In this document: positions 5,202-24,751 of the stretch, in pieces
How positions within the stretch are numbered: the first letter of the stretch is position 1
Layout: each line of letters begins with the position of its first letter
Source: Paenarthrobacter sp. PH39-S1
GTDB taxonomy: Bacteria; Actinomycetota; Actinomycetes; Actinomycetales; Micrococcaceae
NCBI RefSeq assembly: GCF_030063245.1
Contig: NZ_JASISR010000010.1
Coordinates: 62,001-126,000 of the forward strand
Direction of reading: 5' to 3'
DNA: 64,000 nt
Position numbers and translations under genes: made by a program
The notes under the pieces: generated by a model
The model's input: only the letters and a program-made list of their open reading frames with translations
What the model was told of the DNA's origin: nothing
Database searches by the model: none

Positions 5202-6182
5202 GTGAGCAGCAACGCTGATGCCGGGGGGCACAGCCCGTCGGAGACCGACATTCCCGCCGGCGTATCTGGGCCGCAATTGCCGCATGTCGGCGTGGTTCTG
5301 GTGACGCATAACCGCCCCGAGCTCATGCGCCGGGCGCTGGATTCGATCCTGACCCAGGACTATCCTGGCCCCATCACCGTACACGTGGTCCATGACCGCT
5401 GCGCATTGGATTTCGGTCTAGTGCGGCAGGATCCGTTCCGGGAGGTCCGGGTGCAGGAAAACTCCAGGACCCCGGGTCTGGCGGGTGCACGCAACACGGG
5501 CATTGTCAGTTCGGTCACGCAATTGGTAGCCTTTTGCGACGACGACGACAGTTGGCTTCCGGGCAAGCTGCGGCTGCAGACCATCGCCCTGCTGCAGGTG
5601 CCGGGGGCTGCATTCGCCTCCACGGCAATGGTGGTCGATTACGGTGCTCATACGGCGGTCCGTCTGGCCGGTTCAAAAGCCATTCGGCACGAGGACCTGC
5701 TCCGATCCAGGATGTCCATGGTCCATTCCTCGTCATTTTTGGCCGACCGTGAGGCTTTGATCGGAATTGGCATGGTTGACGAGACGATTCCGAACAGCAT
5801 GTGCGAGGACTGGGATCTGCTCCTGCGGGCCACCCGCCACGGGGCCATAGTGAACGTCGACCAGCCGCTCATCCGCGTCCTATGGGGCGGTTCCTCGTAC
5901 TTTTACCAGCAATGGGAGGTAAAGAACGTCGCCCATCAGTGGATGCTCGATCATCACCAGGACATTCGCACGAACGGCGTTGGTGCCGGCAGGGTGTATG
6001 GTCAGCTTGCCTTTGGTCATGCGGCGCTGGGACAACGGCGCGCTGCCCTGCGATGGGCGGGACGCTCAATACGCGCCAACTGGCGCGAGCCCAGAGCGGT
6101 TCTGGCGTTGGCCGTAGCGACGGGGGTTGTTTCGGACAAACGTGTCCTGGATGCCCTGCAGCGACGCGGGCACGGGATCTGA
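5202..6182 (+). CDS. GT2 family glycosyltransferase
   Basis: A 326-aa soluble GT-A-fold glycosyltransferase. The N-terminal nucleotide-sugar region begins VGVVLVTHNRPELMRRAL, followed by GARNTGI and the acidic cluster CDDDDSW that should bind the metal and UDP/GDP sugar. A later EDWDLLLRA segment matches the usual ED acceptor-site motif. I chose GTG 5202 (GAAGGGGG just upstream); ATG 5187 would add five residues and contains the ribosome site inside the gene. No membrane segments. It is divergent from the ligase-like gene and followed 171 nt later by the Wzz-like gene. It should add one sugar to the EPS repeat unit; donor and acceptor are unknown. Confidence 0.88.
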   Translation: MSSNADAGGHSPSETDIPAGVSGPQLPHVGVVLVTHNRPELMRRALDSILTQDYPGPITVHVVHDRCALDFGLVRQDPFREVRVQENSRTPGLAGARNTGIVSSVTQLVAFCDDDDSWLPGKLRLQTIALLQVPGAAFASTAMVVDYGAHTAVRLAGSKAIRHEDLLRSRMSMVHSSSFLADREALIGIGMVDETIPNSMCEDWDLLLRATRHGAIVNVDQPLIRVLWGGSSYFYQQWEVKNVAHQWMLDHHQDIRTNGVGAGRVYGQLAFGHAALGQRRAALRWAGRSIRANWREPRAVLALAVATGVVSDKRVLDALQRRGHGI

Positions 6183-7841: not shown

Positions 7842-7873
7842 GGTGCCAGCGTTGATCCGCATGGGGAACACAG

Positions 7874-9064
7874 ATGGGGGCTGCACCGATGAGCGATAGA
7901 AGCGCGGAACAGACAGTGGCTGGGAATCCCGGCAGTTCGATGCTGTCCTTCCGGATCGCACTGTCGGCGGCAATTGTCCTCGTGCTGCTGGCTCTTGTTC
8001 CGCTGGCGGCCGGCCGGGTAGGTTCAGCTCCCGCGGCATCGGTAGCCCCACCGGCTCCGTCCAGCGGGATTAACCACGTCTTTGTGATCAATCTGGAGAA
8101 CAAGGGCTACAGCCGGGTCTGGGGATCGGATTCCGGCGCCCCATATCTTTCCCAAACACTCCGCAGCCAGGGCGTGCTGCTGTCGTCCTACTATTCGATC
8201 GCCCACAGTTCGTTGCCTAATTACATCGCGCAGATTTCGGGCCAGGCCCCCAACACCCGAACGCTCAAGGACTGCGCCGTATATTCCAAATTCGCTGACA
8301 CCGGCACCGTGCCGCCGGGTCAATGGGTCGGCACCGGATGCGTCTACCCCGCAGCCGTTCCCACCGTGGCCGACCAGCTTACCTCAGCCGGGAAGACCTG
8401 GAAGGGGTATATGGAGGATATGAAAACCCCCTGCCGGCACCCCGAGCTGGGTGCGGCGGACGACACGAAGAAGGCCGTGGTGGGGGACCAATATGCCGCC
8501 CGCCATAACCCTTTCGTCTATTTCGCCGGGATCACGGGGTCACCGCAATGTGCCGCCAACGTTGTTGATCTCGATGCACTGACCGGCGATCTGGCCTCCG
8601 CCGCGACAACCCCCAACCTGTCCTATATCACGCCGAACCTGTGCAGCGACGGCCACGACAAACCGTGCGTGGATGGCCGCGCCGGCGGTCTCCAGGCCAT
8701 CGACACCTGGCTCAAACAGTGGGTTCCCCGGATCACCGACTCCCCCGCGTTCCGACAGGACGGTGTCCTGGTCATAACCTTTGACGAATCCGATGAAAAG
8801 GACATCGTGGATCCGGATGCCTATACCTGCTGCACGGCCAGTTCGACCCCGGTCGCCACCGTGCCCGGCGGCATCGGCGGCGGCCTGGTGGGCGCGCTGG
8901 TGCTCTCACCGCACATCAAGGGTGGCACCACCTCGGACACGGTCTATAACCACTACGGCCTGCTGGCCAGCATAGAAGACATTTTCTCGCTCCCCTACCT
9001 CGGTTATGCGGGAGCTTTTGGACAACACCGGTTCGGCACTGACGTCTACAATTCGGTACCCTGA
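7874..9064 (+). CDS. exported phosphoesterase (alkaline/acid phosphatase-like, PF04185-type)
   Basis: 396 aa with one N-terminal hydrophobic helix (about 28-48) followed by a Pro/Ala-rich linker, so probably exported or membrane-anchored. The domain begins INHVFVINLENKGYSRVWG, contains SSYYSIAHSSLPNYIAQISG with the likely nucleophile Ser/Thr region, and VLVITFDESDE with metal-binding acids, as in the phosphoesterase/phospholipase C-acid phosphatase family. Several Cys residues (C-C pairs around CTCCTAS) suggest disulfides. ATG 7874 and ATG 7889 are both possible; a purine-rich tract precedes each. It starts 32 nt after the Wzz-like gene, so the two are probably co-transcribed. It may trim phosphate from the EPS or from lipid carriers; the substrate is not evident. 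Confidence 0.78.
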   Translation: MGAAPMSDRSAEQTVAGNPGSSMLSFRIALSAAIVLVLLALVPLAAGRVGSAPAASVAPPAPSSGINHVFVINLENKGYSRVWGSDSGAPYLSQTLRSQGVLLSSYYSIAHSSLPNYIAQISGQAPNTRTLKDCAVYSKFADTGTVPPGQWVGTGCVYPAAVPTVADQLTSAGKTWKGYMEDMKTPCRHPELGAADDTKKAVVGDQYAARHNPFVYFAGITGSPQCAANVVDLDALTGDLASAATTPNLSYITPNLCSDGHDKPCVDGRAGGLQAIDTWLKQWVPRITDSPAFRQDGVLVITFDESDEKDIVDPDAYTCCTASSTPVATVPGGIGGGLVGALVLSPHIKGGTTSDTVYNHYGLLASIEDIFSLPYLGYAGAFGQHRFGTDVYNSVP

Positions 9065-9141
9065 CGGTCCCCCATGCACCGCGACGGACGAAGCGCAAGA
9101 CAGCGTCAGCAGCGCAAGGCAGCCCAGGCAGCGCTGCCAGC

Positions 9142-9165
9142 GCAACGGGCTGACGTCAGCGTTGC
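9142..9165. terminator. inverted repeat between convergent genes
   Basis: GCAACG and CGTTGC enclose the palindrome CTGACGTCAG. A second palindrome GGCAGCGCTGCC lies at 9127-9138. Both sit between the convergent phosphoesterase and APH-like genes and could stop transcription from both sides. There is no T-tract, so confidence is limited. Confidence 0.4.
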
Positions 9166-9190
9166 ACTGCCTGCCGTGCAGGTAATCGGG

Positions 9191-10468
9191 TCAGCGCATG
9201 AGCGTCCGGGCCGCAGCAAGAACGTCCATCAGGTCCTGCTGCGAGATCCAGGAGGAGGGCCAGCCGCCGTTGTGCACGGCAAGCGTCCAGGCACGCTCGG
9301 CGACCACCAGCGCGTACACGGCAGCGAGATCGCCCTCCGCCGACTTCGGTACACCGGCGGCCCGCAGGTACAGCGCCGAATCCTCAAGCGAACGCGCCAG
9401 GTTTCCTGCCACCGTGCCGGTTCCTGCTTCTCTGCGGACACTGATCGCCCAATGCAGAGCGTCGAGTCCCGCGATGGCATCCGGCTCCGCCGATTCCCAG
9501 TCCCAGCACCACAATTGTCCCCCGGGTTCGCGTGCGGCATTCCACGGCACCAGGTCGCCGTGCCAGCGGCGGGTGATGGGAAGGGTGGCGTCCCTGGCCA
9601 GAACCATACGCTCGGTCTGTGTTGCCGCTGCCCGCAGCGCCTGCTCCGCACCGTCGGGAAGAGCTCTCAGGCGTTGACTCAGCGCGCGGAAGTGACCGGT
9701 CGACGATACGGTCCCAATGCGCTCCACCGGGGTGAGCGCAAACATCTCCGCCGGCGTAGGTCGGCCGACGTTTCCGCGGACCGCTCTGACGTTCTCCGGC
9801 AGCGGTTCGGTGATCAGGTACGGAAATCCGTCCCACTTTCCGGTACCCAGAAGTCGGGGAACTCGGGTCGGGCCGGAAGCGGTCGCCAACGCTGTCAGGG
9901 CGACTTCCTCCGTCTGGATGTACTCGCGGCTTGTCTCATTCCACGCCAGCTTCGCGTAACCGGCCGGCCGGCCGTCGCCGTCGAAAAGCTGCAACGTCGG
10001 CTTGCGGTTGTCGCCCAGCCGGATCCCTATGGCCGCGGACAGCGGACCCAGTTGCAGGCAGGAGGTGATTTCCTCCAACGGCAGGCAAGCTTCTGCCCGT
10101 GGTGATCCGGCCACCACGGGCCTTTGAACGGAAAGCGTGTGCAACGCCGGCGGCAGCCCCGCTCTGGCGACCAGGCCCAAGGCGTTCCGCGCCCACCGGA
10201 CCTTCGGTGGCCGCAGTGCGCGATAGCTCCTCAGTGCTGCCGCTGTGACCCGGGGATTGCGGCGCGGTATCAGCAGGCGTGCCTTCGCGGGCGACGGCAG
10301 GACCCAATACGTCTCCGCATCCGCCCAGTGGCTGTTCGGCGCCGCATCGACGACGACGCGCGCCTGCCCGGTCCGGACGGGTGTGGACCACAGCTGTTCC
10401 ACCAAAGAATCCAGCGGTGTTCCGCCGGCGCCTGTGATAATCCGTTCCGTGCCTTGCATTTTCTGCAT
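9191..10468 (-). CDS. APH-fold phosphotransferase-like protein
   Basis: 425 aa. The C-terminal half shows the aminoglycoside-phosphotransferase/kinase fold: catalytic loop HGDLVPWN (His303, Asp305, Asn310) and a metal-binding Asp in WCWDWESAEPDA near residue 325, plus GLDALHWA typical of this fold. The first about 150 residues match nothing I recognise. I chose ATG 10468, preceded by AGGAG with a 6-nt spacer, rather than the longer frame from 10531. It is the last gene of the minus-strand run after the WecG-like gene (78 nt gap). In an EPS locus it more likely phosphorylates a sugar, lipid or polymer than an antibiotic, but the substrate is unknown. Confidence 0.72.
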   Translation of the reverse strand: MQKMQGTERIITGAGGTPLDSLVEQLWSTPVRTGQARVVVDAAPNSHWADAETYWVLPSPAKARLLIPRRNPRVTAAALRSYRALRPPKVRWARNALGLVARAGLPPALHTLSVQRPVVAGSPRAEACLPLEEITSCLQLGPLSAAIGIRLGDNRKPTLQLFDGDGRPAGYAKLAWNETSREYIQTEEVALTALATASGPTRVPRLLGTGKWDGFPYLITEPLPENVRAVRGNVGRPTPAEMFALTPVERIGTVSSTGHFRALSQRLRALPDGAEQALRAAATQTERMVLARDATLPITRRWHGDLVPWNAAREPGGQLWCWDWESAEPDAIAGLDALHWAISVRREAGTGTVAGNLARSLEDSALYLRAAGVPKSAEGDLAAVYALVVAERAWTLAVHNGGWPSSWISQQDLMDVLAAARTLMR

Positions 10469-10546
10469 TTTCTTCTCCTGCCGGATCGGCGGCCTTGTGT
10501 TGCGGGTGGCTGACTCCGTGGCCGGGACCAAACTTCGGCGGCGCTG

Positions 10547-11368
10547 TTACGGAGCGGGGATTGAGCTGTTCAGCCGAAGCCGGCCGTAAGCGGGCGGCCC
10601 GTCGGCCAGGTAGCGACGGGCCAGCCTGCGGGGTTCGTGCACCAGCCGCCAGACCCACTCGAGACCGTGGCCGCTGACCCATTGGGGGGCCCGCGCCACA
10701 CGACCGGCGAGAAAATCAACCGCGGCACCGAAGGCCAGCAGGACGCGGGCGCCTGTCAAGGCCCCGTACTGGCTGATCCACACTTCCTGCCGCGGCTTTC
10801 CTAATCCGACCACCAGGATGTCCACCCCCGCGTGCGAAATCTCCTCGGCGAAGCGCCGACAGGCCTGCGGATCGGAGAGCTCGGAACGGGCAGGCGCCCA
10901 CCATCCGGCGACCACCAAATCGGGGCGGATAGCCGCGAGTTTGCCTTTGAGGAGTTCATGGGTTTCCTCGGTCCCGCCCAGAAATCCAACCCGAAGGCCC
11001 CGCGTGGCCGCCCGATCCAGCAGTGGTTCGATGAGGTCGCTGCCGGCCAGTCGGGGCCAGTTCTGCCCCGTCATCCGTTTGGCCTGCGCGACCAGCGGCG
11101 CGCCGTCCAGGAGGCTGAGCCACTGGACCGCCGGCTGGTCGGCCGGTCCGGCACTGGCGCGGGTCCCTCCGTCTCCGGTTCCCAGGTTGAGCGTGCCGCC
11201 GGCACCGAAGTGCTTGATGTGGTCCAGATTGACCGAGACGACCGCCATCGGCAGAGGGCCCGGAACAGCAGCCCGGTCGGACACCATGTCCACGGCGGCG
11301 TCAAAGGACATCAGGTCCACCTCCGCGCCGCCGAGAATGACGCGGGATGTGGATATTACTTTCACCAT
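10547..11368 (-). CDS. WecG/TagA/CpsF family glycosyltransferase
   Basis: 273 aa, the family's usual size. It shows the conserved LLDGAPLV site in place of the typical PDG motif, RLAGSDLIEPLLDRAA, GLRVGFLGGTEET and DILVVGLGKPRQEVWI, all signatures of the GT26 family. These enzymes transfer a sugar, often N-acetylmannosamine or a uronic acid, onto a lipid-linked first sugar at the cytoplasmic face. ATG 11368 follows an AGGGGG tract about 8 nt upstream. It lies 63 nt downstream of cysN and may share its transcript. Probably adds the second sugar of the EPS repeat unit. Confidence 0.85.
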   Translation of the reverse strand: MVKVISTSRVILGGAEVDLMSFDAAVDMVSDRAAVPGPLPMAVVSVNLDHIKHFGAGGTLNLGTGDGGTRASAGPADQPAVQWLSLLDGAPLVAQAKRMTGQNWPRLAGSDLIEPLLDRAATRGLRVGFLGGTEETHELLKGKLAAIRPDLVVAGWWAPARSELSDPQACRRFAEEISHAGVDILVVGLGKPRQEVWISQYGALTGARVLLAFGAAVDFLAGRVARAPQWVSGHGLEWVWRLVHEPRRLARRYLADGPPAYGRLRLNSSIPAP

Positions 11369-11431: not shown

Positions 11432-12679
11432 CTAGGCGTGCACGATCATGCCGGCACCGACGGTGTTGTTGGTGTGTTCGTCGATCAGGACGAAACCGCC
11501 CGTTTCACGGTTGCGCCGGTACTCATCGGTCAGCAGTGGTGTCGTGGTGCGAAGCCGTACCCGCCCGATGGAATTGAGCTTGAGCTCCGCACAGGATTCG
11601 TTGCGGTGCAGCGTATTCACATCAAGCTCGTACTGGACCGATTTCACCAGGGCCCGGGTGTTGCGGGTGGTGTGTTTGAGGGCAAGTTTTTGACCGGGCC
11701 GCATGGGTTCATCACTCATCCAAGCCACCATCGCGTCGATGTCCTGGGTGATTCTGGGTTGGTTATTCGGGCGGCAGATCATGTCGCCGCGGGAAATGTC
11801 AATGTCGTCTTCCAACCGGACCGTGACGGACATCGGCGCAAACGCCTCGTCCACCGGGCCATCAGCGGTTTCAATGGAGCTGATCCGGCTCGGCAGCCCG
11901 CTGGGCAGGACGATGACTTCGTCTCCCGTGCGCATCACTCCGCCGGCGATTTTCCCGGCGTATCCGCGGTAATCATGAAATTGGCTGGAATGCGGCCGGA
12001 TCACATGCTGGACGGGAAAGCGCCCGTCCACCAGGTTCCGGTCACTGGCGATGTACACGTTTTCCAGGTGATTGAGCAGCGCGGCGCCCTCATACCAGGG
12101 CATGTTCTCCGAGCGGTCCACGACGTTGTCGCCGTGCAGCGCAGATACCGGAATAACCGTCAGATCTGCTATCTGCAGCTTGGCCGCAAATTCGGTAAAT
12201 TCCCGCCGGATGTTCTCATATACTTCCCGGGAGTACCCCACCAGATCCATTTTGTTGACGGCCAGCACGAGGTGCGGGACCTGCAGCAGTGAGACCAGGA
12301 AGGCATGGCGGCGGCTTTGCTCCACCAGTCCCTTGCGGGCGTCAACCAGCACGATGGCCAGATCTGCGGTGGACGCACCCGTCACCATGTTGCGCGTGTA
12401 TTGGATGTGGCCCGGGGTGTCGGCGATGATGAACTTGCGTGCGGGCGTGGCGAAATACCTGTAGGCAACATCGATGGTGATGCCCTGCTCCCGTTCGGCC
12501 CGGAGCCCATCGGTGAGCAGCGACAGTTCCGTGTATTCGGACCCCATCTCGCGACTGGCACGCTCCACGCCCTCAAGCTGATCTGTGAATATGGATTTGG
12601 AATCATAGAGCAGACGACCGATAAGGGTGCTCTTGCCGTCGTCGACCGACCCCGCTGTCGCAAATCTGAGCAGGTCCAT
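11432..12679 (-). CDS. cysN: sulfate adenylyltransferase subunit 1 (GTPase)
   Basis: 415 aa, the normal size for CysN without a fused APS kinase. G1 loop SVDDGKSTLIGRLL, G3 DTPGHIQYTRNM and G4 NKMDLV identify the translation-factor-like GTPase whose GTP hydrolysis drives APS formation by CysD. Its ATG overlaps the cysD stop by one base (TAATG), so translation is coupled. It belongs to the cysQ-cysD-cysN run within the EPS cluster. The product APS would be phosphorylated by the CysC encoded at 17367. Confidence 0.95.
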   Translation of the reverse strand: MDLLRFATAGSVDDGKSTLIGRLLYDSKSIFTDQLEGVERASREMGSEYTELSLLTDGLRAEREQGITIDVAYRYFATPARKFIIADTPGHIQYTRNMVTGASTADLAIVLVDARKGLVEQSRRHAFLVSLLQVPHLVLAVNKMDLVGYSREVYENIRREFTEFAAKLQIADLTVIPVSALHGDNVVDRSENMPWYEGAALLNHLENVYIASDRNLVDGRFPVQHVIRPHSSQFHDYRGYAGKIAGGVMRTGDEVIVLPSGLPSRISSIETADGPVDEAFAPMSVTVRLEDDIDISRGDMICRPNNQPRITQDIDAMVAWMSDEPMRPGQKLALKHTTRNTRALVKSVQYELDVNTLHRNESCAELKLNSIGRVRLRTTTPLLTDEYRRNRETGGFVLIDEHTNNTVGAGMIVHA

Positions 12680-13599
12680 TAGAAGTAGCCTTCTTTCTTT
12701 CGGTCTTCCATCGCTGCTTCGCTGACGCGGTCGTCTCCGCGGGTTGCGCCGCGTTCGGTGATGCGGGTGGAGGCAACTTCGTCAAGGACTTTCTCAACGG
12801 TGTCCGCCTGGGAGCGGACGGCTGCCGTCAGCGTGGCGTCGCCGACGGTGCGGTATCGGACCGACTCCACGAAGGTCGGCTCCGCGGCCATCGGCCGACA
12901 GAACTCGTTGGCGGCGAACAACATGCCATTGCGTTCGAACACCTCGCGTTCGTGGGCGTAATAGATGGACGGCACCTCGATGCCCTCTGCCGCGATGTAC
13001 TCCCAGATGTCCAGCTCGGTCCAATTGGACAACGGAAAGACGCGGATGCTCTCCCCCACATGCACTCGTGCGTTGAACAGATTCCACAGTTCCGGCCGTT
13101 GTTTTTTTGGATCCCACTGGCCGAACTCGTCCCGGAAAGAGAATATGCGTTCCTTGGCCCGCGCCTTTTCCTCATCCCGGCGCGCCCCGCCCAACAGTGC
13201 ATTGAATCCGTACTTTTCCGCCGTTTCCAGCAGCACCGGCGTCTGCGTACGGTTGCGGGTTCCGTTGGGCTCTTCCTTGACCGTCCCCCGGTCGATGGCA
13301 TCCTGGACGGACCCCACCACCAGGTTCAGCGAATACTGCGCTACGATCTTGTCCCGGAAATCCAGCACCTCCGGGAAATTATGTCCAGTGTCCACGTGCA
13401 GGATGGCCATTGGCACGGCCGCCGGGGCGAACGCCTTCCTGGCCAGGTGCAGCATGACCAGGGAGTCCTTGCCGCCGGAGAACATCAGGGCCGGCCGCTC
13501 AATTTCGGCAACAACTTCCCGGATAATATAGATCGCCTCTGATTCCAATACCTCGAGCTGCGACAAAATCCGCCTGGGGCTCTCCATCACGTCACTCAC
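12679..13599 (-). CDS. cysD: sulfate adenylyltransferase subunit 2
   Basis: 306 aa. A PP-loop ATPase with the motif MFSGGKDSLVML near residue 40 and the family blocks HVDTGHNFPEVLDF and RRDEEKARAKER, followed by FPLSNWTELDIW. It adenylates sulfate to APS with ATP in complex with CysN. The start is GTG 13599 inside the 8-base overlap GTGAGTGA with cysQ, so cysQ, cysD and cysN form a tight operon. Placement next to cysQ rather than APS reductase genes points to PAPS supply rather than cysteine synthesis. Confidence 0.96.
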   Translation of the reverse strand: MSDVMESPRRILSQLEVLESEAIYIIREVVAEIERPALMFSGGKDSLVMLHLARKAFAPAAVPMAILHVDTGHNFPEVLDFRDKIVAQYSLNLVVGSVQDAIDRGTVKEEPNGTRNRTQTPVLLETAEKYGFNALLGGARRDEEKARAKERIFSFRDEFGQWDPKKQRPELWNLFNARVHVGESIRVFPLSNWTELDIWEYIAAEGIEVPSIYYAHEREVFERNGMLFAANEFCRPMAAEPTFVESVRYRTVGDATLTAAVRSQADTVEKVLDEVASTRITERGATRGDDRVSEAAMEDRKKEGYF

Positions 13600-14401
13600 C
13601 TGCGTTTCCTTTCGACCGGCTGCTGGTCAGCCTGGTCTCGTCGATGAGCCGAAGCAGCGCCCCGCTCAGTTCCGGTCTGCACACCAGCAGATCGGGTAAA
13701 TAGGGATTAGGTTGGTTGTAGCGCAATGGCGACCCGTCGATCCGGCTGGCATGCAGTCCGGCACCCCGGGCCACCGCGACAGGCGCCGCCGAATCCCATT
13801 CGTACTGGCCGCCGTCGTGCAGGTAAATGTCCACTTCGCCGCTCGCCACTGCGCAGACCTTGTATCCTGCCGATCCCATCGGAATCAGCTGGGCGCCGAT
13901 TTGTCCGGCCACCTGGGCCGCGAGTTCGGGCGCACGGCTGCGTGAAACCGCCATCCGCAACGGCGCATGCGGTGCGGACACCTGGCCTGGCCGCGCGGAG
14001 CTGCAGACCATGTCCAGTCGCGGCAATGCCACCGCCCCGGTGACCAGCTCGCCCGCTGACCAGAGCGCCACATGGACGGCCCAGTCCCCCCGTCCTTCGG
14101 AGAATTCCCGCGTTCCGTCCAACGGGTCGATGATCCACACCCGGTCGGCGTTCAGCCTCGCCGGGTTGTCTGTTGCTTCCTCCGAGAGCACCATGTCCCC
14201 GGGCCGCGCCTGCTGGAGCGCTTTTCTCAGATATTCCTGCGAGCGCTTGTCACCCACCACTCCCAGTGGATTCTTACCATCATGCGGCTCGCGGCGCTGC
14301 AGCGCGAGGAGTGCCTTTCCCGCACCTTCTGCAAGCTCACAGGCCAGATCGTCGTCGGACATTTTTGCGCTGCGAACGGTGTCCCGCTTGAGTAATAACA
14401 T
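13592..14401 (-). CDS. cysQ: 3'(2'),5'-bisphosphate nucleotidase (CysQ family)
   Basis: 269 aa. An inositol-monophosphatase-fold phosphatase with LSEEATDNP, the metal-binding WIIDPLDGTREFSEG near residues 90-100, and the distal YEWDSAAPVAVARGAG. CysQ removes the 3'-phosphate from PAP, the by-product of sulfotransferases, or from PAPS. ATG 14401 has a GGGGG tract 3 nt upstream. It lies 27 nt after the initiating glycosyltransferase on the same strand and overlaps cysD by 8 bases. Its presence inside the EPS operon is the strongest sign that sulfotransfer takes place, because PAP arises mainly there. Confidence 0.92.
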   Translation of the reverse strand: MLLLKRDTVRSAKMSDDDLACELAEGAGKALLALQRREPHDGKNPLGVVGDKRSQEYLRKALQQARPGDMVLSEEATDNPARLNADRVWIIDPLDGTREFSEGRGDWAVHVALWSAGELVTGAVALPRLDMVCSSARPGQVSAPHAPLRMAVSRSRAPELAAQVAGQIGAQLIPMGSAGYKVCAVASGEVDIYLHDGGQYEWDSAAPVAVARGAGLHASRIDGSPLRYNQPNPYLPDLLVCRPELSGALLRLIDETRLTSSRSKGNAGE

Positions 14402-14428
14402 GTTCCCCCCTGGTTTTCGGTGCTGCGG

Positions 14429-15973
14429 TTAGTAGGCGCCAACAGGATTCTTGAGCATCCTTGCGGTGCGCCAGAGAATAATGAGATCGCCGGTGAGAGA
14501 CCAGTTTTCGACGTAATACAGGTCCAGACGGACGCTGTCCTGCCAGTTCAGAGCGGAGCGGCCGTTGATCTGCCACATACCCGTCAGGCCCGGTTTGATG
14601 TACAGGCGGCGGTGGACCCGATCCTTGTATCCGTCAACCTCGCGCTGCAGAGGTGGCCTGGGGCCGACCAGGCTCATGTCCCCGCGCAGTACGTTCCAGA
14701 GCTGGGGAAGTTCGTCCAGCGAATACCTTCGCAGCCATTCGCCGGTGGTCGTCACACGCGGGTCGTCCTTCATCTTGAAGAGGAGTCCGGCGCCCTCATT
14801 GCGCTCGAGCAGCCCGGCCAGTTCCTCCTCCGCCGTCACGACCATGGATCGGAATTTGAACATCACGAACTTCTCCCCGGCCCGGCCGATCCGTTCCTGG
14901 CGGAAAAGCACCGGTCCCGGACTGTCACGGCGGATCAGCACGGCGAGGACCAGAAAAAGCGGAGCGAGAACCAGCAAGGCGCAGCCGGAGAGAACAACAT
15001 CCAGCAGGCGCTTGACCACATGTTTTGCCCCCGCGTACTGCGGAAGTTCCACGTGCATCAGCGGCAGTCCCTCCACCGGGCGGGAGTGGATACGGGGTCC
15101 GGCCACGTTGGTCAGTCCGGTGGCCAGGACAAGTTCGGTTCTGGATTCTTCGAGCCGCCAGCCCAGTTTCTGGATGTAATCACTGCCGCCCTTCAGCGGG
15201 CCGGCCACGATGACGGCGTCCGCTTCGAAACGGCGGACGGCGTCCACCACCGAATCAATGGTGGACACGACGGGTACGGCGGTGGGGCCGACGACGACGC
15301 TCAGCCGCGGGTCACTGCCGGGCAGGGCCGCGCCCACGACATGATAGGCGGCCCCGGATTTCTTCTGAATCTGGTTGATGACGTAGCGGACGTCCTTGTG
15401 GCGGCCCAACACTATGACCCGGGAAAGATAGTGGCCGAAGGCGCGTTGCCGCATCAGCCAGTTCCGCAGCGCCCAGCGCGAAGCTATCAGCCCGCCCACG
15501 CCCAGCGGGACGGCCAGGGCGAAGTAGCCTCTGGCAATGTCAATCTTAAAAACCAGGAACGTGATGGCCAGCAGACCAAGCAGTGTGGTCGTAGCGCTGA
15601 TGACCCGCTTGTATTCGTCCGAACCGATCCCCACCACACGTGCGTCCCGGCTGCCGTAAATGCCCAGCGCCAGCATCCAGGCCGCTGCTATCCCCAAGGA
15701 GAGGAATCCGTATCCGATTCCGAACTGGCCCACGCTGACGTCCGGGTTTCCGAACCCGAATCGGCCAATCTGCGCTCCGATGGCAACGCTGGTCAGTACC
15801 GTGGCGTCACTGATGCACAGCCGCAAGTGATACCTTGTGGCCCACTGCTCACCCGAACGGACGGTGGCGGCTCCTGCCCGGGACCGCACCGACCGGCTGG
15901 CGGGGTAGTAGCGTGCCGGCGCCGCGAGATCAAGCCCAAGGCCGAATGCACCCGAGTCCTCCAGGGGACTCAT
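14429..15973 (-). CDS. polyprenyl glycosylphosphotransferase initiating EPS synthesis (WbaP/CpsE-like)
   Basis: 514 aa. The N-terminal half has four to five membrane segments and a CoA-binding-like middle region (RVIVLGRHKDVRYVINQI). The C-terminal bacterial sugar transferase domain starts with the re-entrant helix KRLLDVVLSGCALLVLAPLF and has PGPVLFRQERIG, FKFRSM, RRYSLDELPQLWNVLRGDMS, VGPRPPL and KPGLTGMWQINGRS. It transfers a sugar-1-phosphate to undecaprenyl phosphate, the first committed step. ATG 15973 has no clear ribosome site; MSPLED gives a normal family length. It is the first gene of the minus-strand run leading into cysQ-cysD-cysN, WecG-like and APH-like genes. Confidence 0.9.
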   Translation of the reverse strand: MSPLEDSGAFGLGLDLAAPARYYPASRSVRSRAGAATVRSGEQWATRYHLRLCISDATVLTSVAIGAQIGRFGFGNPDVSVGQFGIGYGFLSLGIAAAWMLALGIYGSRDARVVGIGSDEYKRVISATTTLLGLLAITFLVFKIDIARGYFALAVPLGVGGLIASRWALRNWLMRQRAFGHYLSRVIVLGRHKDVRYVINQIQKKSGAAYHVVGAALPGSDPRLSVVVGPTAVPVVSTIDSVVDAVRRFEADAVIVAGPLKGGSDYIQKLGWRLEESRTELVLATGLTNVAGPRIHSRPVEGLPLMHVELPQYAGAKHVVKRLLDVVLSGCALLVLAPLFLVLAVLIRRDSPGPVLFRQERIGRAGEKFVMFKFRSMVVTAEEELAGLLERNEGAGLLFKMKDDPRVTTTGEWLRRYSLDELPQLWNVLRGDMSLVGPRPPLQREVDGYKDRVHRRLYIKPGLTGMWQINGRSALNWQDSVRLDLYYVENWSLTGDLIILWRTARMLKNPVGAY

Positions 15974-16380
15974 GCGGTGCGCCGGGAGCCGGTGCTGCTA
16001 AAAGGGGAGGCCGACGACGGCTGGGGGGAAGTCTTGGTCTCAGAAGACTCCACCGCCATCGGCCCCGAATGGGGGGCCCGCAGATTACTGTGCGGGCGGA
16101 GCTGCGGTGCAGCTGAAGGGACAAGCAGGATGAAGGTTGAAGGTAAGCACATAATTCGAGACCTGCTTCGTACCCGGTAGTTGATTGAGTGAATACCTCA
16201 ACGCTATGGGCGTCGATCGCGCCGCACACGAGTAGCGCCTACGCGTCTTCTCAGCCGGGCCTACGTGGTCTTGCGCTGGGGTACTTTGTATCGCTCCCCG
16301 CTGAAGCAGGAGACTACTTGGTGCCGTGACGGACTACTCCTCCACCGCATATCACTACCCATGTGCACGCGCGCGGAGCA
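15974..16380. promoter_or_regulatory. 407-bp divergent intergenic region with candidate promoter
   Basis: This gap separates the minus-strand EPS genes from tauE-cysC on the plus strand and must hold promoters for both. TTGATT at 16181-16186 and CTATGG at 16204-16209, with 17 bp between, are a possible plus-strand promoter. The overlapping TTGAG/CTCAA pair (16185-16201) could be an operator. No reading frame here looks coding. Confidence 0.3.
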
Positions 16381-17370
16381 ATGGCAAAATCTCCACTTAT
16401 GGACTTAATGGTGGTATTCGCAGCCTTTGGCGTGGCGATAGTGGTCGGCTTGACCGGCATGGGCGGCGGGGCGTTGATGACTCCCGTCCTGGTGCTGATC
16501 TTCGGCGTTCCTCCGTTGGCCGCCGTATCCAGCGACCTGGTGGCAAGCGCCGTCATGAAGCCGATCGGTTCCGTTGTCCATTTGCGCCGTAAGACGGTCA
16601 ATCTTGACCTGGTCAAATGGCTGGCTCTGGGCTCGGTGCCCGCGGCGTTTTGCGGGGTGCTGGTACTCAAGGCGCTCGGTCCCGGTGAAGCGGTCCAGGA
16701 AGGGGTCAAACTGGCCCTTGGCGTCGCGCTGCTGCTGGCCGCCGTGCTGCTGGTGGTGCGCTCTTTCCTGCGGCTGGTGGAACGGGCCCGCAGTCGGAAC
16801 GGACAGGGGTCTACGCCACCCCAGGACCGCCCTTCGGTGCTGGCCCGGCCGTTGCCGACGGTGCTGCTTGGCGCCATTGGCGGCCTCGTCGTCGGAATGA
16901 CGTCGGTAGGCTCGGGCTCCATCATCATCATTGGGCTGATGATGATTTATCCCGGGCTTAAGGCCAGCCAGCTGGTGGGCACGGACCTGGTCCAGGCCGT
17001 ACCTCTGGTGGCCGCTGCCGCGTTGAGCCACTCCGTCTTTGGTGACCTGGATCTGGCCCTCACCCTGCCCTTGGTTCTGGGGAGCATCCCGGGCGTCTAT
17101 CTGGGAGCGCAACTGTCCAGCCGGCTCTCCGGCGGATTCGTGCGGCGCGCCTTGGCCTTTGTCCTGCTGGCCTCCGCACTGAAAATGCTGGGATTGGGCA
17201 ATGTCCCGACCGCAATTATTTTAGGCGCCGCTCTCATGGTGGCACCGGTGCTGTGGATGTATATCCGCAGATTCAACGGTCTGCCGGCACTGGCGGTCAC
17301 CGAGAGCCGCCAACGCCGCAGCGCGGCCGTCAACGCAGACCATGCCTTACAAACCGGGAGATCAAATTGA
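16381..17370 (+). CDS. TauE/SafE family sulfite/sulfonate-type membrane transporter
   Basis: 329 aa with about eight hydrophobic segments. The first ends in the family hallmark GLTGMGGGALMTPVLVL; the second half repeats it as GMTSVGSGSIIIIGLMM, showing the internal duplication of TauE/SafE proteins, which move sulfite, sulfoacetate or related anions. GTG 16363 and ATG 16399 are alternative starts; ATG 16381 has GGAG just upstream. Its stop TGA overlaps the TTG start of cysC by 4 bases, so the two are translated together. Coupling to an APS kinase suggests transport of sulfate, sulfite or a sulfated compound for the PAPS pathway; direction unknown. Confidence 0.85.
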   Translation: MAKSPLMDLMVVFAAFGVAIVVGLTGMGGGALMTPVLVLIFGVPPLAAVSSDLVASAVMKPIGSVVHLRRKTVNLDLVKWLALGSVPAAFCGVLVLKALGPGEAVQEGVKLALGVALLLAAVLLVVRSFLRLVERARSRNGQGSTPPQDRPSVLARPLPTVLLGAIGGLVVGMTSVGSGSIIIIGLMMIYPGLKASQLVGTDLVQAVPLVAAAALSHSVFGDLDLALTLPLVLGSIPGVYLGAQLSSRLSGGFVRRALAFVLLASALKMLGLGNVPTAIILGAALMVAPVLWMYIRRFNGLPALAVTESRQRRSAAVNADHALQTGRSN

Positions 17371-18725
17371 CCAGCTGGACCAGTCCCGACCCAACACCTG
17401 TTCATGCCCTGGATGGACCCGCACTCGACGAGTTGGAGCTCCTGCTCGGTGGGCTATTCGCGCCGGCGCATGGCTATTGCCTGCCGGGACAGGCGCCACC
17501 TTCCTGGCCTGACAACTTCACCTTGGCGGTGCCCGTCGGGCTGGGCGAAACGGCACGGATCCAAGGAGCGCTAGTCCTCTCCGATCCGGATGGAACACCC
17601 TTGGCCCGGCTCACTATCAGCGACTCCACCCACCTGTCCGCCACGGTAATGAACCTCGCCGGCGAGCTGGTCCCCTTACGCCCGGCCGAGCACCCGCCGG
17701 CCAGAGGATTGCGGCTGACGCAGCCGCTGCCAAAACCGGCGGGGCGCAGGACACTTCTCGCCGCCTTTTCTGGTCAACCGCGGGCGGCGCAGATGGCCAT
17801 GACGGCTGCAACAGCGAGGAGGGAAGAGGCGGACATTTGGTTCGTCGCCGTTTGTGGACCCCAGCCACATGGCCGCTACACGGTAACGGGTCTGATGACC
17901 ACGCTTGAACAATGTGCTGCCCAGCTTCCGGATTCCTCGGTCGGACTGGTGATTATGCCTACCTCCGTGGATGCGATGGACCGGCACGACCGTCTCCTGC
18001 GCGGGCATGTTCTGGCGAATCTGGGCGCGGACGTGCTGCTGGACTTCACGGAACTGGCGGAAACGCCGGACCGCGTCCCGGCGCAGCAAGCTGGCGTCCC
18101 TGGCATGGGTGCCGTGGTCTTCCTGACCGGGCTCTCCGGTTCGGGGAAATCGACCATCGCACGCGCGCTGGCCGGCCACCTGCAGCACAGCGACAGGCGG
18201 CCCGTGACGTTGCTGGACGGAGACGATGTCCGCCGGCTCCTGTCCTCCGGGCTGGGGTTCAGCAAAGAAGACAGGGAGATCAATATCCGGCGCGTTGGCT
18301 GGGTTGCCTCACTCATCGCCCGGTCCGGGGGGATCGCCGTCTGTGCGCCGATCGCCCCGTTTGATGCCACCCGTCAGGAGGTCCGCGCCATGGCTGCGGA
18401 TGCAGGGACGTTCCTGCTGGTGCATGTCTCCACTCCGCTGCAGGTATGTGAACAACGGGACCGTAAGGGCCTGTACGCCCGGGCGCGGGCCGGCAACCTG
18501 CCCGACTTCACCGGAATCGATTCACCGTACGAAATACCCGAGGATGCGGACGTCGTCATCGATACCTGGTGCACCGGCGTCCAGGAGGCCGCGGAGCAGA
18601 TCGTGGACGCACTGGCCCTGCGTGCAAAACCGGAGCGCTCGACACCTGAGCGATCAATGCAAGAGCCATGCCCCGCAGTCGCCGACAGCAGGCTCGACGG
18701 TGCCCGGCTCACCGTAGCCCGCTGA
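17367..18725 (+). CDS. cysC: adenylylsulfate kinase with ATP-sulfurylase-like N-terminal region
   Basis: 452 aa. The C-terminal about 200 residues are a canonical APS kinase: Walker A TGLSGSGKST (about 254-262), LLDGDDVRRLLSSGLGFS, REINIRRVGWVA, CAPIAPFDATRQ and KGLYARARAG. This makes PAPS from APS. The first about 245 residues resemble the PUA-like and catalytic-fold parts of ATP sulfurylase (IQGALVLSDPDGTPLARLTI), but I see no HxGH-type active site, so this part is probably non-catalytic. The start is TTG 17367, with GGAG 6 nt upstream, within the TTGA overlap with tauE; no ATG or GTG nearby fits. Sulfate adenylation itself would be done by CysDN. Confidence 0.9.
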   Translation: MTSWTSPDPTPVHALDGPALDELELLLGGLFAPAHGYCLPGQAPPSWPDNFTLAVPVGLGETARIQGALVLSDPDGTPLARLTISDSTHLSATVMNLAGELVPLRPAEHPPARGLRLTQPLPKPAGRRTLLAAFSGQPRAAQMAMTAATARREEADIWFVAVCGPQPHGRYTVTGLMTTLEQCAAQLPDSSVGLVIMPTSVDAMDRHDRLLRGHVLANLGADVLLDFTELAETPDRVPAQQAGVPGMGAVVFLTGLSGSGKSTIARALAGHLQHSDRRPVTLLDGDDVRRLLSSGLGFSKEDREINIRRVGWVASLIARSGGIAVCAPIAPFDATRQEVRAMAADAGTFLLVHVSTPLQVCEQRDRKGLYARARAGNLPDFTGIDSPYEIPEDADVVIDTWCTGVQEAAEQIVDALALRAKPERSTPERSMQEPCPAVADSRLDGARLTVAR

Positions 18726-18886: not shown

Positions 18887-21592
18887 TCAGGCGAAGGTGT
18901 CTTTGAGTTCCGCCCTTGACGTGACCTGGAGCTTGCCGTAAATCTGATACAAATGGCCTTCCACGGTGCGCACAGAAATGTGCATTTTGGCCGCGATGGC
19001 CCGGTTACTGACTCCCGCCGCAGCCCAGGCCGCGACCTCCTGCTCCCGCGCGGTCAAAGCCTCCCCGTCCTCGCTGGACCGCTTGACGCCACCGAGCTTC
19101 TCCAGACTCCCGCGGATGAACTGCTGGGCCACCCTCATCATGTTGCGGTCCGCGGCATCGGCGGCAAATTTCAGCGCGGCGCGGGCGGCGTCACGGGCGA
19201 ACAGGTCGTCCCCGCTGCCCGAGGCGGCTTCCGCCACGGCGGTCAGTACGCCGGCGTCCATGCTCAGCAGTCCAGTGCCGTAGTCCTGACATTGCTGCGC
19301 AAACGGTCCATGGATGCCCGATGCCACATCGACCAGCCGCTGTGCACCGGTGGTGCTGCCAAGACGAACGGCCGCATGGACGAACAGCAGTTCGGCGGAC
19401 GATGCCTGGCACCGGCGCTCCTGATCGGCAAGGCTGAACAGCCTCACGATGGCCTTTTCTTTGGAGGCCAGCTCCGCCGAGGCCAGTATTTGGAAATACG
19501 CACACCCGCTCGCCAGCATCCGCGATGTCCGGACTCTCGGTGGTTTGCCGCTGTTCAGGCACTCCAATGCCCGGTCATTGTCTCCTTGCAAGGCGTAGGC
19601 ATACGCTGCCGCGGCACTCGCAAGCGCCGAAGTCCCGTCCGGATCCAGCTGCCGGAGCTGGCTGGCTGCCGGCAGCAGATGCTCCAGGGCCTCCTGCGTG
19701 CGGCCCCGGTAGGCGAAAAGCAGCCCGTCTCCAAGTTCGGCAAACGCCGCCGCGCGGGCACCCGTAAAGGTGCAGGAGTACATAGCAACGTCGGGAACTG
19801 CCCGGACCGGGGCAGCCGTTCCGGTCAGGATGGCCAGTAGTATGGCCGAGTCCGCAACCTCCCAGCGCGGCGGCAGGACGTCATACCCGGCAGACCGCGC
19901 GCCCACCTCATGAGCCAGCTTGACCGCTTCCGTCTGGCGTCCGGTAAGGGTCTGAATTTCGCACAGCAGGCTTCCCGCATGACGTCTTTGGTCCCTGCTG
20001 CGCCCTGACGCGTGGATTCTGGCCAATTCCGCCGCAAATTCGACGTAGCGGCCGCCATAAATCCCCAGTTCTGCCCGCGCCAGGATCAGCTCCTCATTAA
20101 AATTCGCCAGCTTGTCCGGGTCCAAGCCCTCACTCCCGCTGCACCGGTTCAGCCGCGCTCCCACCGCATCGAGGATTGCCTGCGGATCCGGTTGTTGTGT
20201 TTCCGAAGACCTGACGAGCCTGGAACGCATGAGCTGAATCTCCACCCATTGCGCCAGCGGCATGTGATCCGAGAGCAGGCCCTGGCTGAACAGGACGGAA
20301 CGGGCCGATTCAATCTCGCCCAATGCCATCAGCGCGCGGGCCTCCTGCGCGACCGCCTCCAACCGCTGCGCCGGGTCCCGCAGGACGGCAACAAAGTTCA
20401 GCGCGGTTTCCGGGTTGCCGGAGCAATTGGCCAGCCGGGCCGCGCGCAACGCCAACTCTGGGGCAAGGGCCAGGCCGCAACTCAAAGCCCACGCTGCCAT
20501 GGACAATTCTTCGGACTCTGTCACAACCGTCTTGACCAGTATCGCGGCCACCGTGTGATGGAGGTCCCTGCTTCTTCCGATCGCCACCTGGCTGCGGAGG
20601 ATGTGGACGATCAGCCGGTTGGAGAGTCTGACCCGGGACGGCTCGCCCCGGGTGATGTCCAGATATCCGCGCTGCTCAAGTGAGTTGATGGCCAATGGAT
20701 CACCGACGCCCAGCAGCCGGTCGAGAGTCAGGCCGCCGGAAAGCGCCAGAACGTCCATGACCAGACATTCCTGCTGTGAAAGCGAGTTAAGCGAAGTCAT
20801 CACGGTGTCCGCAACCGTGGTGCTGTATTCGAACGGCTTACCGGTGAGGACCCAGATGCCATCCTGCTGCACGACCGTTTTGGCGGCTATCTGTTCCGGC
20901 AGGATGACTTCCGCGAAACGCGGATTTCCTCCGCTTGCTTCCCACAGCGCCTCGGACAGGGCTCGGGAGACCTTGGCATCGAGTGCGGCGACCAGCCACT
21001 GCGCCATTTCGTATTCATTGAAGGGCTGTACTTCCACCCTGCGCACCAGACCATCCTTCCACAGCCCGACGATGCCGCCGGGAGCCGTGGCCAGGTCCTC
21101 GCAGGCGGCCAACAAATGCACGGTTCCGTTGGCGGTCAGCTGACTGACGACCAGGGCCGTCAGCTCGTCAAGGTACTGCGCGTTATCGACACACAGGATG
21201 ATGTCGCGCCCATGGGCCCTGGTCCGCAGCAGCTTGGTGAGTCCCCGCAGGACAGCCAATGGGTTTCCCACCACGTCTTCGTCAAGATCGTTAAGCAGTG
21301 AGCTGAACGCCCCGTACGGCATGTCGGAGGCCATCGAGCTGCCTCGCACCTGCACTATGTAAGCGTTCTCGCCCAACTGCGCGGCTGCTTTTCTGGTCAG
21401 AAACGTCTTACCGGCGCCGTACTCCCCGACGAGAATAACCCCGCACCTGGTGCTGCCGGTCAGAACCGTCACGATGTCGTCGACGAGCAGTTGCCGACAG
21501 TAGGAGGAGTTTTCAATCTTCTGCCGGATAATCCTAAATACGGAATCCTGTGAAATGGATTTGCCCGCGCCAGCAATACCTGAGTGCAACAT
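18887..21592 (-). CDS. LAL-type (large ATP-binding LuxR) transcriptional regulator 1
   Basis: 901 aa. The N-terminal AAA/STAND ATPase has Walker A LVGEYGAGKTFL (about 56-66) and Walker B DIILCVDNAQYLDE. A long helical, TPR-like middle follows, and a LuxR helix-turn-helix ends the protein (LTAREQEVAAWAAAGVSNRA, then SVRTVEGHLYQIYGKL). Such MalT-like proteins bind ATP and an inducer and activate promoters. I chose ATG 21592 with AAGG 8 nt upstream; ATG 21607 has no ribosome site. A -10-like TAAGTT lies at 21634-21639. The same architecture recurs in the next two genes. Its neighbour is the PAPS/EPS locus; the regulated genes are not shown by sequence. Confidence 0.9.
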   Translation of the reverse strand: MLHSGIAGAGKSISQDSVFRIIRQKIENSSYCRQLLVDDIVTVLTGSTRCGVILVGEYGAGKTFLTRKAAAQLGENAYIVQVRGSSMASDMPYGAFSSLLNDLDEDVVGNPLAVLRGLTKLLRTRAHGRDIILCVDNAQYLDELTALVVSQLTANGTVHLLAACEDLATAPGGIVGLWKDGLVRRVEVQPFNEYEMAQWLVAALDAKVSRALSEALWEASGGNPRFAEVILPEQIAAKTVVQQDGIWVLTGKPFEYSTTVADTVMTSLNSLSQQECLVMDVLALSGGLTLDRLLGVGDPLAINSLEQRGYLDITRGEPSRVRLSNRLIVHILRSQVAIGRSRDLHHTVAAILVKTVVTESEELSMAAWALSCGLALAPELALRAARLANCSGNPETALNFVAVLRDPAQRLEAVAQEARALMALGEIESARSVLFSQGLLSDHMPLAQWVEIQLMRSRLVRSSETQQPDPQAILDAVGARLNRCSGSEGLDPDKLANFNEELILARAELGIYGGRYVEFAAELARIHASGRSRDQRRHAGSLLCEIQTLTGRQTEAVKLAHEVGARSAGYDVLPPRWEVADSAILLAILTGTAAPVRAVPDVAMYSCTFTGARAAAFAELGDGLLFAYRGRTQEALEHLLPAASQLRQLDPDGTSALASAAAAYAYALQGDNDRALECLNSGKPPRVRTSRMLASGCAYFQILASAELASKEKAIVRLFSLADQERRCQASSAELLFVHAAVRLGSTTGAQRLVDVASGIHGPFAQQCQDYGTGLLSMDAGVLTAVAEAASGSGDDLFARDAARAALKFAADAADRNMMRVAQQFIRGSLEKLGGVKRSSEDGEALTAREQEVAAWAAAGVSNRAIAAKMHISVRTVEGHLYQIYGKLQVTSRAELKDTFA

Positions 21593-22000
21593 GTTTGAGA
21601 CCTTCATATCCAGTTGGGGGTGCTGCTAAACCAAACTTACGAAAGTCCCGCCTCCATGGCACGAGTAGAAAGTACTCCATTTCCCAGTATTTTCACAGGC
21701 GGCCCGGGACAGGTGTACTCAGTACTCTGGAGGATGCCTGCTTTTAGGGACCAAGTAGTCACGGCGCTACAGGGCAGGCGGACGGTAGCGGTCATCATCC
21801 AGGCCGCCATGGCGTGATGACAACCCTTTGAGTACAGGCAGCGGCAGCGACATTGAACGGCGCGTTACAAGGACCGGACCGGACCGCGAACGGGACCGGA
21901 CCGCGAACGGGACCGGGACCGGACCGCGAACGGGACCGGACGGCGAAGGGCACGGCGAAGTTCACGCCCGTGCTGGGCGTCCAACAGGAAAGGGGTCTGG
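21593..22000. promoter_or_regulatory. 408-bp intergenic region upstream of LAL1
   Basis: On the minus strand a -10-like TAAGTT occupies 21634-21639. Upstream of it are three GTACTC hexamers (plus-strand reading 21672-21677, 21715-21720, 21722-21727), the last two 7 bp apart, possible operators. Further up is the 17-bp tandem repeat listed separately. No coding frame is convincing. Confidence 0.4.
21876..21949. repeat. 17-bp tandem repeat, four copies
   Basis: Unit GGACCGGACCGCGAACG at 21876-21892, 21893-21909 and 21916-21932, with a degenerate fourth copy at 21933-21949 and a 6-bp insertion (GGACCG) after the second. It lies directly downstream of the LAL2 stop and upstream of LAL1. Role unknown. 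Confidence 0.8.
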
Positions 22001-24706: not shown

Positions 24707-24751
24707 CCGGGATTCCTGTCACAACGGTTTGCCATGCTGCGCCCGATACGG

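Follow-up and report, generated by a model that had tools for sequence, protein, structure and literature searches.

The window, a 64,000-nucleotide stretch of the Paenarthrobacter sp. PH39-S1 genome, carries a set of sulfate-activation genes embedded among genes for polysaccharide assembly. The features considered below are the following, with L002 coordinates given where a feature lies at least partly left of base 1:

L002:10176-11066 (G000:C11:52176-53066), about 9 kb left of base 1, minus strand: sulfotransferase (PF00685 and PF13469, both over cut-off)
L002:11150-12811, outside the window, minus strand: Wzx-type flippase (PF01943; 12 hydrophobic segments)
1-3384, continuing left of base 1 to L002:18270, minus strand: large PKD-domain protein of 1704 aa (codon-position GC; PF18911, matched in the scanned part L002:18270-19823)
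3538-5058, minus strand: Wzy/O-antigen ligase-like protein (PF04932 at E 3e-6, below cut-off; 10 hydrophobic segments)
5184-6182, plus strand: glycosyltransferase family 2 (PF00535)
6354-7841, plus strand: Wzz/chain-length-determinant-like protein (TIGR01006, PF02706 and PF13807, weak and below cut-off)
9191-10531, minus strand: kinase-like (APH-type) protein (HGDxxxWN and WDWE stretches conserved)
10547-11368, minus strand: WecG/TagA/CpsF-type glycosyltransferase (PF03808, TIGR00696)
11432-12679, minus strand: cysN, GTPase subunit of ATP sulfurylase (TIGR02034, 574 bits)
12679-13599, minus strand: cysD, small subunit of ATP sulfurylase (TIGR02039, 422 bits; separate paralog group in the tree)
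13592-14401, minus strand: cysQ, putative PAP phosphatase for recycling (5djf; motifs; TIGR01331 below cut-off)
14429-15973, minus strand: initiating polyprenyl-phosphate sugar transferase (TIGR03025, PF02397)
16363-17370, plus strand: TauE/TSUP transporter (PF01925; 9 hydrophobic segments)
17367-18725, plus strand: cysC, ATP-sulfurylase-like domain fused to APS kinase (PF01583; TIGR00455, 191 bits; N-terminal profile against 3cr8)
18887-27511, minus strand: three large LuxR/AAA (STAND-type) candidate regulators (PF00196 and AAA)

No Pfam or NCBIfam profile matched one further open reading frame, L002:12769-13656, which was rejected as a gene and is treated as non-coding.

Profile matches and coordinates confirm that cysQ, cysD and cysN form an overlapping operon (8 bases shared by cysQ and cysD, 1 base by cysD and cysN) between the initiating sugar transferase and the WecG-like glycosyltransferase, as the sequence-only reading had described. 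In a tree, 17 cysD copies, among them that of the window, form a separate paralog group, split from 15 other copies with support of 100/100. The CysQ-like protein reaches 112 bits against the NCBIfam profile TIGR01331, below the cut-off of 229. Among solved structures, its first relative is the PAP phosphatase 5djf (E 6e-67), followed by CysQ 3b8b (4e-18), with inositol phosphatases ranking lower (E from 9e-14 on), and the SEEA, DPLDGT and EWDSA stretches are present. As it is nearer to PAP than to inositol phosphatases and its motifs are conserved, we regard it as a probable CysQ-type PAP phosphatase.

The expected cysC gene was found across the divergent gap, where it overlaps the gene of the TauE-type transporter. 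Its start had been placed at 17253, but a TTG codon at 17367 is more likely: this codon overlaps the TauE stop as TTGA, and a relative with 74% identity aligns from the same start. No other gene in the genome matches PF01583. The first approximately 240 residues of CysC constitute an ATP-sulfurylase-like domain (profile of 18 N-terminal parts against 3cr8, E 1e-19), thus the protein fits the 3cr8-type make-up of a sulfurylase-like N-terminus followed by an APS kinase. A PUA_2 match was obtained for 7 of 18 CysC members, the window copy not being among them. This domain was named by profile search; an AlphaFold model of full CysC, built from a three-sequence alignment, had a mean pLDDT of 47 and was set aside. 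The stretch that we take to be the usual sulfurylase active site is not kept in the N-terminal alignment, and sulfurylase activity is predicted to have been lost from this domain. We presume 3cr8 to be the two-domain APS kinase of Thiobacillus denitrificans. Window CysC shares its architecture with that protein and with a two-domain Entamoeba enzyme, described as having an inactive sulfurylase-like domain (PMC13213808); unlike in these enzymes, its APS would come from a separate CysDN.

The piece missing from this set, a sulfotransferase, had been predicted to lie perhaps left of base 1, and one is indeed encoded there on the same contig, beside the Wzx-type flippase. PF00685 and PF13469 match nothing else in the 4.65-Mb genome, hence the objection raised in advance, that the genome might hold no sulfotransferase, falls away. 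The gene lies outside the cys operon, 20-26 kb from the window cys genes (26 kb from cysC). A search for a further sulfotransferase family, PF03567, gave no match in the genome and none in any control genome, so it does not establish the absence of that family. The structural relatives of the sulfotransferase are 3rnl and heparan sulfate 3-O-sulfotransferase structures (E about 7e-15), and 13 of its 14 solved relatives are heparan sulfate sulfotransferases. The stretches that we take to bind PAPS occur in variant forms in 17 sulfotransferase sequences, including that of the window genome. Because it has no hydrophobic segment, the enzyme is probably cytoplasmic.

Genes of the cysDN type might also be explained as a second copy for cysteine assimilation, placed beside polysaccharide genes by chance. 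The combination expected of such a cluster, cysH and a sulfite reductase with cysDN, is present on contig C69 (cysN, cysD, cysH and a NirA-like sulfite reductase) and absent from the window. PF01507 has three matches in the genome, namely the window CysD and the CysD and CysH of C69, therefore CysD is its only hit in the window, and a NIR_SIR search of the window gave none; the earlier statement that cysH and sulfite- or nitrite-reductase-like genes are missing here was thus correct. Nor does the genome hold a cysH-type cluster dependent on the window for its cysDN, which had been named as a potential refutation, since C69 has its own pair. The C69 CysH carries CC and CxxC pairs, presumably the mark of an APS reductase; APS reductases work without PAPS. 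The C69 cluster serves cysteine synthesis, separately from the window cys genes.

A survey of 295 family genomes also bears on this alternative. A sulfotransferase match was found in 20 of them (18 in one survey and 19 in another, 20 in the union), that of G276 being a 66-residue match with a stop. A cysC match occurred in 21 genomes, i.e. in 20/20 sulfotransferase carriers and in 1/275 others (Fisher test 4e-30, shared ancestry ignored). The single exception, G016, has a cysQ-cysD operon and a cysN-cysC fusion, and in the carrier G177 the match is limited to the kinase domain of such a fusion. Both genes are found in the identical 10 of 32 genera. They share a contig in 15 of the 20 carriers, separated by 58 bp to 30 kb; the remaining five assemblies consist of several contigs, and each has the two genes on separate ones. 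All 17 cysD copies at least 70% identical to that of the window (its own included) come from sulfotransferase carriers; three of the 20 carriers (G074, G177 and G276) lack such a copy. In two genomes of the same genus, G001 and G004, cysC is without a match and the cysD retained is of the lower-identity kind. On the other side, the window-type cysD is the sole cysD at E <= 1e-60 in 5 of the 17 genomes having it, where it may also feed cysteine synthesis. We consider the cysteine explanation very unlikely, and chance placement is rejected on the co-inheritance data. In a class-wide survey, cysC was detected in 298 of 394 genomes; due to this commonness, it marks the trait within the family alone.

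Among 17 other carriers of the first survey, 12 had both genes on one contig, and their loci were compared. All 12 contain cysC, cysQ, cysD, the sulfotransferase and PKD proteins; glycosyltransferase family 2 and Wzy-like proteins recur in 11 and Wzx in 10, these matches often being part-length, and the initiating transferase recurs in 8. The TauE/TSUP gene, whose product possibly transports sulfate or sulfite, adjoins cysC in 6 of the 12, and 8 have relatives of the LuxR/AAA regulators close to cysC or to the sugar transferase. The kinase-like gene adjoins the sulfotransferase in 11, whereas the two are separate in the window genome; PF01636 matches 4 of 12 members of this kinase-like family, the window copy giving no match. 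A CysC search of genome contigs returned 8 loci, of which 6 were mainly kinase-domain matches and 2 were taken further. The similarity of cysD is not tracked by that of the sulfotransferase, which suggests that the glycan cassettes are exchangeable.

The constant presence of PKD proteins in these loci would suit a system in which the sulfotransferase and PAPS genes sulfate proteins, such as the large PKD proteins themselves. We regard this as highly improbable, as the PKD proteins, with their N-terminal hydrophobic segment, are probably exported, in contrast to the sulfotransferase, whose nearest solved relatives, moreover, use carbohydrate. It is also conceivable that the acceptor is a lipid-linked oligosaccharide, a glycolipid or a secondary metabolite, in the style of Nod factors or mycobacterial sulfolipids, with no polymer being formed. 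Some rhizobial and mycobacterial sulfotransferases are described as sulfating lipo-oligosaccharides (PMC8205485), and the Wzy and Wzz matches in the window are weak. However, a polysaccharide assembly set (initiating transferase, glycosyltransferases, flippase, polymerase) is present in the region and largely recurs in the relatives, and nearly all solved relatives of the sulfotransferase act on heparan sulfate. The presence of Wzy- and Wzz-like proteins, both of them weak calls, makes a glycolipid target less likely, and we judge this alternative to be unlikely overall.

Based on the gene identities, linkage and co-inheritance computed here, we conclude that the region very probably provides sulfate activation within a Wzx/Wzy-type locus whose product is a sulfated surface polysaccharide. 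The sequence-only reading, that a cys set within an EPS locus points to sulfotransfer, is thereby supported by the sulfotransferase, the separate cysDN of C69, the sole cysC and the co-occurrence of the two genes. In the pathway that we propose, TauE would import sulfate, CysDN would form APS, and CysC would phosphorylate it to PAPS. The sulfotransferase would then transfer the sulfate, in the cytoplasm, to a sugar of a lipid-linked repeat unit built by the initiating transferase, GT2 and WecG-like enzymes, while the by-product PAP would be hydrolysed by CysQ. The unit would be flipped by Wzx and polymerised by the Wzy- and Wzz-like proteins. The acceptor sugar, like transport and the enzyme activities, is predicted from the gene content.

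Loci for sulfated polysaccharides are already known (synechan, the Cobetia and Vibrio capsules, and the predicted wps-1 of Actinoplanes), and the present locus adds one. Genes for PAPS supply have been termed a hallmark of such loci (PMC11641403), and here they share a locus with a sulfotransferase. The sulfated capsule structures of Cobetia marina KMM 1449 and Vibrio sp. KMM 8419 have been solved, and, as in the window, cysD and cysN/cysC lie in a polysaccharide cluster with sulfotransferases; the Cobetia cluster also has cysQ and, further, a sulfate permease, and the Vibrio cysCND are second copies (PMC11766843, PMC11641403). Unlike the window genome, these are Gram-negative marine hosts with ABC-transporter export (kps), and cysNC is fused in Cobetia (PMC11766843, PMC11641403). 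The synechan cluster xss of Synechocystis 6803 is similarly a Wzx/Wzy cluster with sulfotransferases and a STAND-type activator, XssQ, but it has two sulfotransferases and eight glycosyltransferases, and the term PAPS is absent from the main text of that paper (PMC8205485).

A similar gene content is that of wps-1 in Actinoplanes missouriensis, for which a sulfated polymer was predicted in 2026 (PMC13390465). It is an actinomycete Wzx/Wzy/Wzz cluster with GT2 and GT26 (WecG type), it has a heparan-sulfate-type sulfotransferase, WpsH, numbered beside the kinase-like WpsI, and a gene of the sulfate adenylyltransferase/APS kinase family, AMIS_7390, neighbours it (PMC13390465). In contrast to the window locus, it has two sulfotransferases, GH26 and a methyltransferase, and its main text names neither cysC nor cysD (PMC13390465). 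The two loci were compared by gene kind alone; the kinds match, but the kinase-like gene of the window is not beside the sulfotransferase. AMIS_7390 was not induced together with wps-1 on day 3, its deletion harms the sporangia, and the authors link it to sulfur amino acids and not to PAPS supply (PMC13390465).

These comparisons permit a further suggestion, which we offer tentatively and think may well not hold. A conserved activation module (cysQDN and two-domain cysC, in many cases with a TSUP transporter and STAND-type regulators) might be combined with exchangeable cassettes, in which case related strains would display differently sulfated surface polysaccharides, or ‘sulfotypes’, akin to serotype switching. 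The kinase-like protein paired with the sulfotransferase would join in sulfation or add phosphate, and PAPS supply would explain the hitherto unexplained sporangial phenotype of AMIS_7390.

That sulfated EPS is little described in soil actinobacteria, as was remarked at the outset, fits the papers considered here, the exception being the Actinoplanes prediction (PMC13390465). Among the open-access matches listed, titles and the beginnings of abstracts describe no sulfated-polysaccharide genes in Arthrobacter relatives. Bacterial sulfated polysaccharides have been called a cyanobacterial speciality (PMC8205485, PMC13390465), despite the two solved capsules of marine Gram-negative bacteria (PMC11766843, PMC11641403). 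It seems that a bacterium related to Arthrobacter probably sulfates its own surface polysaccharide, a chemistry seldom reported in such bacteria. Within the family, cysC together with the sulfotransferase might constitute a simple genomic marker and supplies candidates for a chemical test. If our reading is true, the locus, carried by 20 of 295 family genomes, would extend the sulfated-polysaccharide trait to Gram-positive bacteria.

The predicted cys genes were found at the positions claimed by the sequence-only reading, with families assigned as listed below. That reading had also suggested that the missing sulfotransferase perhaps lies left of base 1. A genome search (4.65 Mb, 135 contigs) gave one match each for PF00685 and PF13469, in a single gene on contig C11, of which the window is C11:62001-126000.

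C11:52.3-53.0 kb (about 9 kb left of base 1), minus strand: sulfotransferase, 296 aa (PF00685, PF13469)
9191-10531, minus strand: kinase-like gene (conserved stretches, no Pfam match)
10547-11368, minus strand: WecG-like glycosyltransferase (PF03808)
11432-12679, minus strand: cysN (TIGR02034)
12679-13599, minus strand: cysD (TIGR02039)
13592-14401, minus strand: cysQ (below the NCBIfam CysQ cut-off, PAP-phosphatase-like by solved relative)
14429-15973, minus strand: initiating sugar transferase (TIGR03025)
16363-17370, plus strand: TauE-type transporter (PF01925)
from 17367 (likelier start), plus strand: cysC (TIGR00455)

The minus-strand run from the sugar transferase to the kinase-like gene is likely one operon, in which adjoining genes either share 1 or 8 bases or leave gaps of 15-63; the plus-strand transporter gene and cysC overlap. 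One neighbour of the sulfotransferase, encoded on the same strand, is a Wzx-type flippase. The top solved relatives of the sulfotransferase are 3rnl ('Sulfotransferase' by name) and heparan sulfate 3-O-sulfotransferases (E about 7e-15). Both PAPS-binding stretches occur in variant forms among 17 sulfotransferases including its own (KRGGTTS in 7, QRxxTTx in 10). PF03567 had no match in the genome, but none in the control genomes either, thus the absence of such sulfotransferases is not concluded.

The cys genes of the window probably serve a purpose other than cysteine synthesis. Contig C69 carries another cluster, which encodes CysN, CysD, CysH, a chelatase-like protein and a NirA/sulfite-reductase-like protein; it has its own cysN and cysD, and is not the cysH cluster without another cysDN copy that would have spoken against the sequence-only reading. 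As that reading stated, the window lacks cysH (the three PF01507 matches in the genome are both cysD genes and the C69 cysH) and a nitrite/sulfite-reductase gene (NIR_SIR matches only on C69 and at C11:13.9 kb). The C69 CysH contains the CC and CxxC pairs usual in APS reductases, whose substrate is APS itself. CysC had no match in two genomes of the same genus, G001 and G004, each of which keeps one cysD.

The window cysC is the single PF01583 match in the genome. Its start is more likely TTG 17367, inside the TTGA ending the TauE gene, than GTG 17253; the alignment with a relative in Arthrobacter sp. H14-L1, 74% identical, begins at the TTG start too. The first ~240 residues of CysC match ATP sulfurylases, including the sulfurylase-like half of 3cr8, a two-domain APS kinase (E 1e-19), and PUA_2 matches 7 of 18 cysC members, the window copy not among them. 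Sulfurylase-like domains without activity are described in Thiobacillus denitrificans and Entamoeba (excerpt of PMC13213808). CysDN would provide APS for the two-domain CysC. CysQ contains SEEA, DPLDGT and EWDSA stretches, and its top solved relative is the PAP phosphatase 5djf (E 6e-67), presumably the M. tuberculosis enzyme, with inositol phosphatases far behind (9e-14 and weaker).

Co-inheritance was studied in 295 family genomes, the window's own included; the two sulfotransferase searches and the cysC search were treated as one genome set because handles and totals agree. Sulfotransferases were found in 18 genomes by sequence and 19 by PF00685 (union 20; G276 contributes a fragment of 66 residues containing a stop). 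All 20 are among the 21 genomes with a cysC sequence match (Fisher's test 4e-30, which ignores ancestry), and in 15 of them the two genes share a contig with a gap of 58 bp to 30 kb; in the other five, all multi-contig assemblies, the genes lie on separate contigs. A patchy distribution speaks against simple inheritance of the pair: within the window's genus, for example, three of five genomes have both genes and two have neither. A counter-result on specificity is that cysC matches 298 of 394 genomes across the class.

The twenty-first genome, G016, carries cysQ-cysD as an operon, with cysN and cysC fused. The same fusion occurs in G177, where 745 bases separate a PF00685 gene from the APS kinase domain; genus g13 (G177, stretch L136; G016, stretch L135) holds the module in this other form. 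Since G008 has six PF00685 matches, four inside 8 kb of one contig, its product is perhaps multiply sulfated.

Locus composition was compared in 12 relatives, those with both genes on one contig out of 17 other genomes matching the sulfotransferase sequence. CysC, cysQ, cysD, the sulfotransferase and PKD-domain proteins occur in 12/12 loci, cysN in 11 (beyond the fetched end in the remaining one), GT2 and Wzy-like proteins in 11 each, Wzx in 10 (often with a third to half of the protein covered), the initiating transferase and Wzz-like proteins in 8 each, and TauE in 6. Relatives of LuxR/AAA regulators lie close to cysC or the sugar transferase in 8/12; the window has three large ones in tandem adjoining cysC (18887-27511, minus strand). 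The counts for PKD-domain proteins, Wzz-like proteins and LuxR/AAA regulators are lower bounds because some fetched stretches stop close to them. The WecG-like glycosyltransferase matched none of the 12 loci at E 1e-8 and therefore may be part of this strain's own glycan. The kinase-like gene adjoins the sulfotransferase in 11/12 relatives, though not in the window genome; alignment with 11 relatives shows conserved HGDxxxWN and WDWE stretches, PF01636 matches 4 of these 12 copies, and a profile search of solved structures returned choline kinase only (E 0.58). Also present are a PF04185 phosphoesterase-family protein amid the polysaccharide genes (7874-9064, plus strand; matched among the 12 loci only in G191, 63% identity) and three giant PKD-domain proteins of 1471, 1082 and 1704 aa, of which one also contains Laminin_G_3 (L002, the stretch left of the window: 13649-18064, 6644-9892, and 18270 to window 3384, minus strand).

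In 17 genomes (own included), every one a sulfotransferase carrier, a cysD copy shares 70% identity or more with that of the window; the next best copy reaches 67%, and the carriers without such a cysD are G074, G177 and G276. When the 17 were placed in a tree with 15 further copies picked by us (10 from carriers, 5 from non-carriers), the two sets separated with support 100/100. Five of the 17 genomes have no other cysD at E <= 1e-60, and in them this enzyme may therefore supply cysteine synthesis as well. Sulfotransferase and cysD identities are uncorrelated among the 17 (136 pairs, Spearman -0.04): compared with the window, the same-genus G002 shows 94% for CysD and 30% for the sulfotransferase, and G055 78% and 75%. 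The sulfotransferase tree forms two main groups (n=7 and n=10). These comparisons suggest that glycan cassettes were exchanged around a stable PAPS module; other histories, e.g. old paralogs sorted by loss, are possible explanations of the mismatch.

Sulfated capsules of determined structure, with PAPS genes and sulfotransferases in the capsule cluster, are described for Cobetia and Vibrio (parts of PMC11766843 and PMC11641403), the PAPS genes of Vibrio being second copies (PMC11641403), and synechan is the product of a Wzx/Wzy cluster with sulfotransferases (part of PMC8205485). By described gene kinds, the closest known system is the wps-1 cluster of Actinoplanes missouriensis, which has a WecG-type enzyme and a heparan-type sulfotransferase whose gene number adjoins that of a kinase-like gene; the neighbouring gene AMIS_7390 belongs to the sulfate adenylyltransferase/APS kinase family (excerpts of PMC13390465). 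Deletion of AMIS_7390 causes severe sporangium defects; the authors link the gene to sulfur amino acids. PAPS supply would be a simple alternative reading; however, AMIS_7390 was not switched on together with wps-1 at day 3 (same excerpts).

The proposal that the window's PAPS genes serve sulfotransfer onto an exported polymer or a glycolipid is supported, and the best explanation is, with good confidence, a sulfated Wzx/Wzy polysaccharide. Loci of this kind are already known and this one adds a further example; its modest novelty lies in the co-inheritance across a family, the varying sulfotransferases and the two-domain APS kinase.
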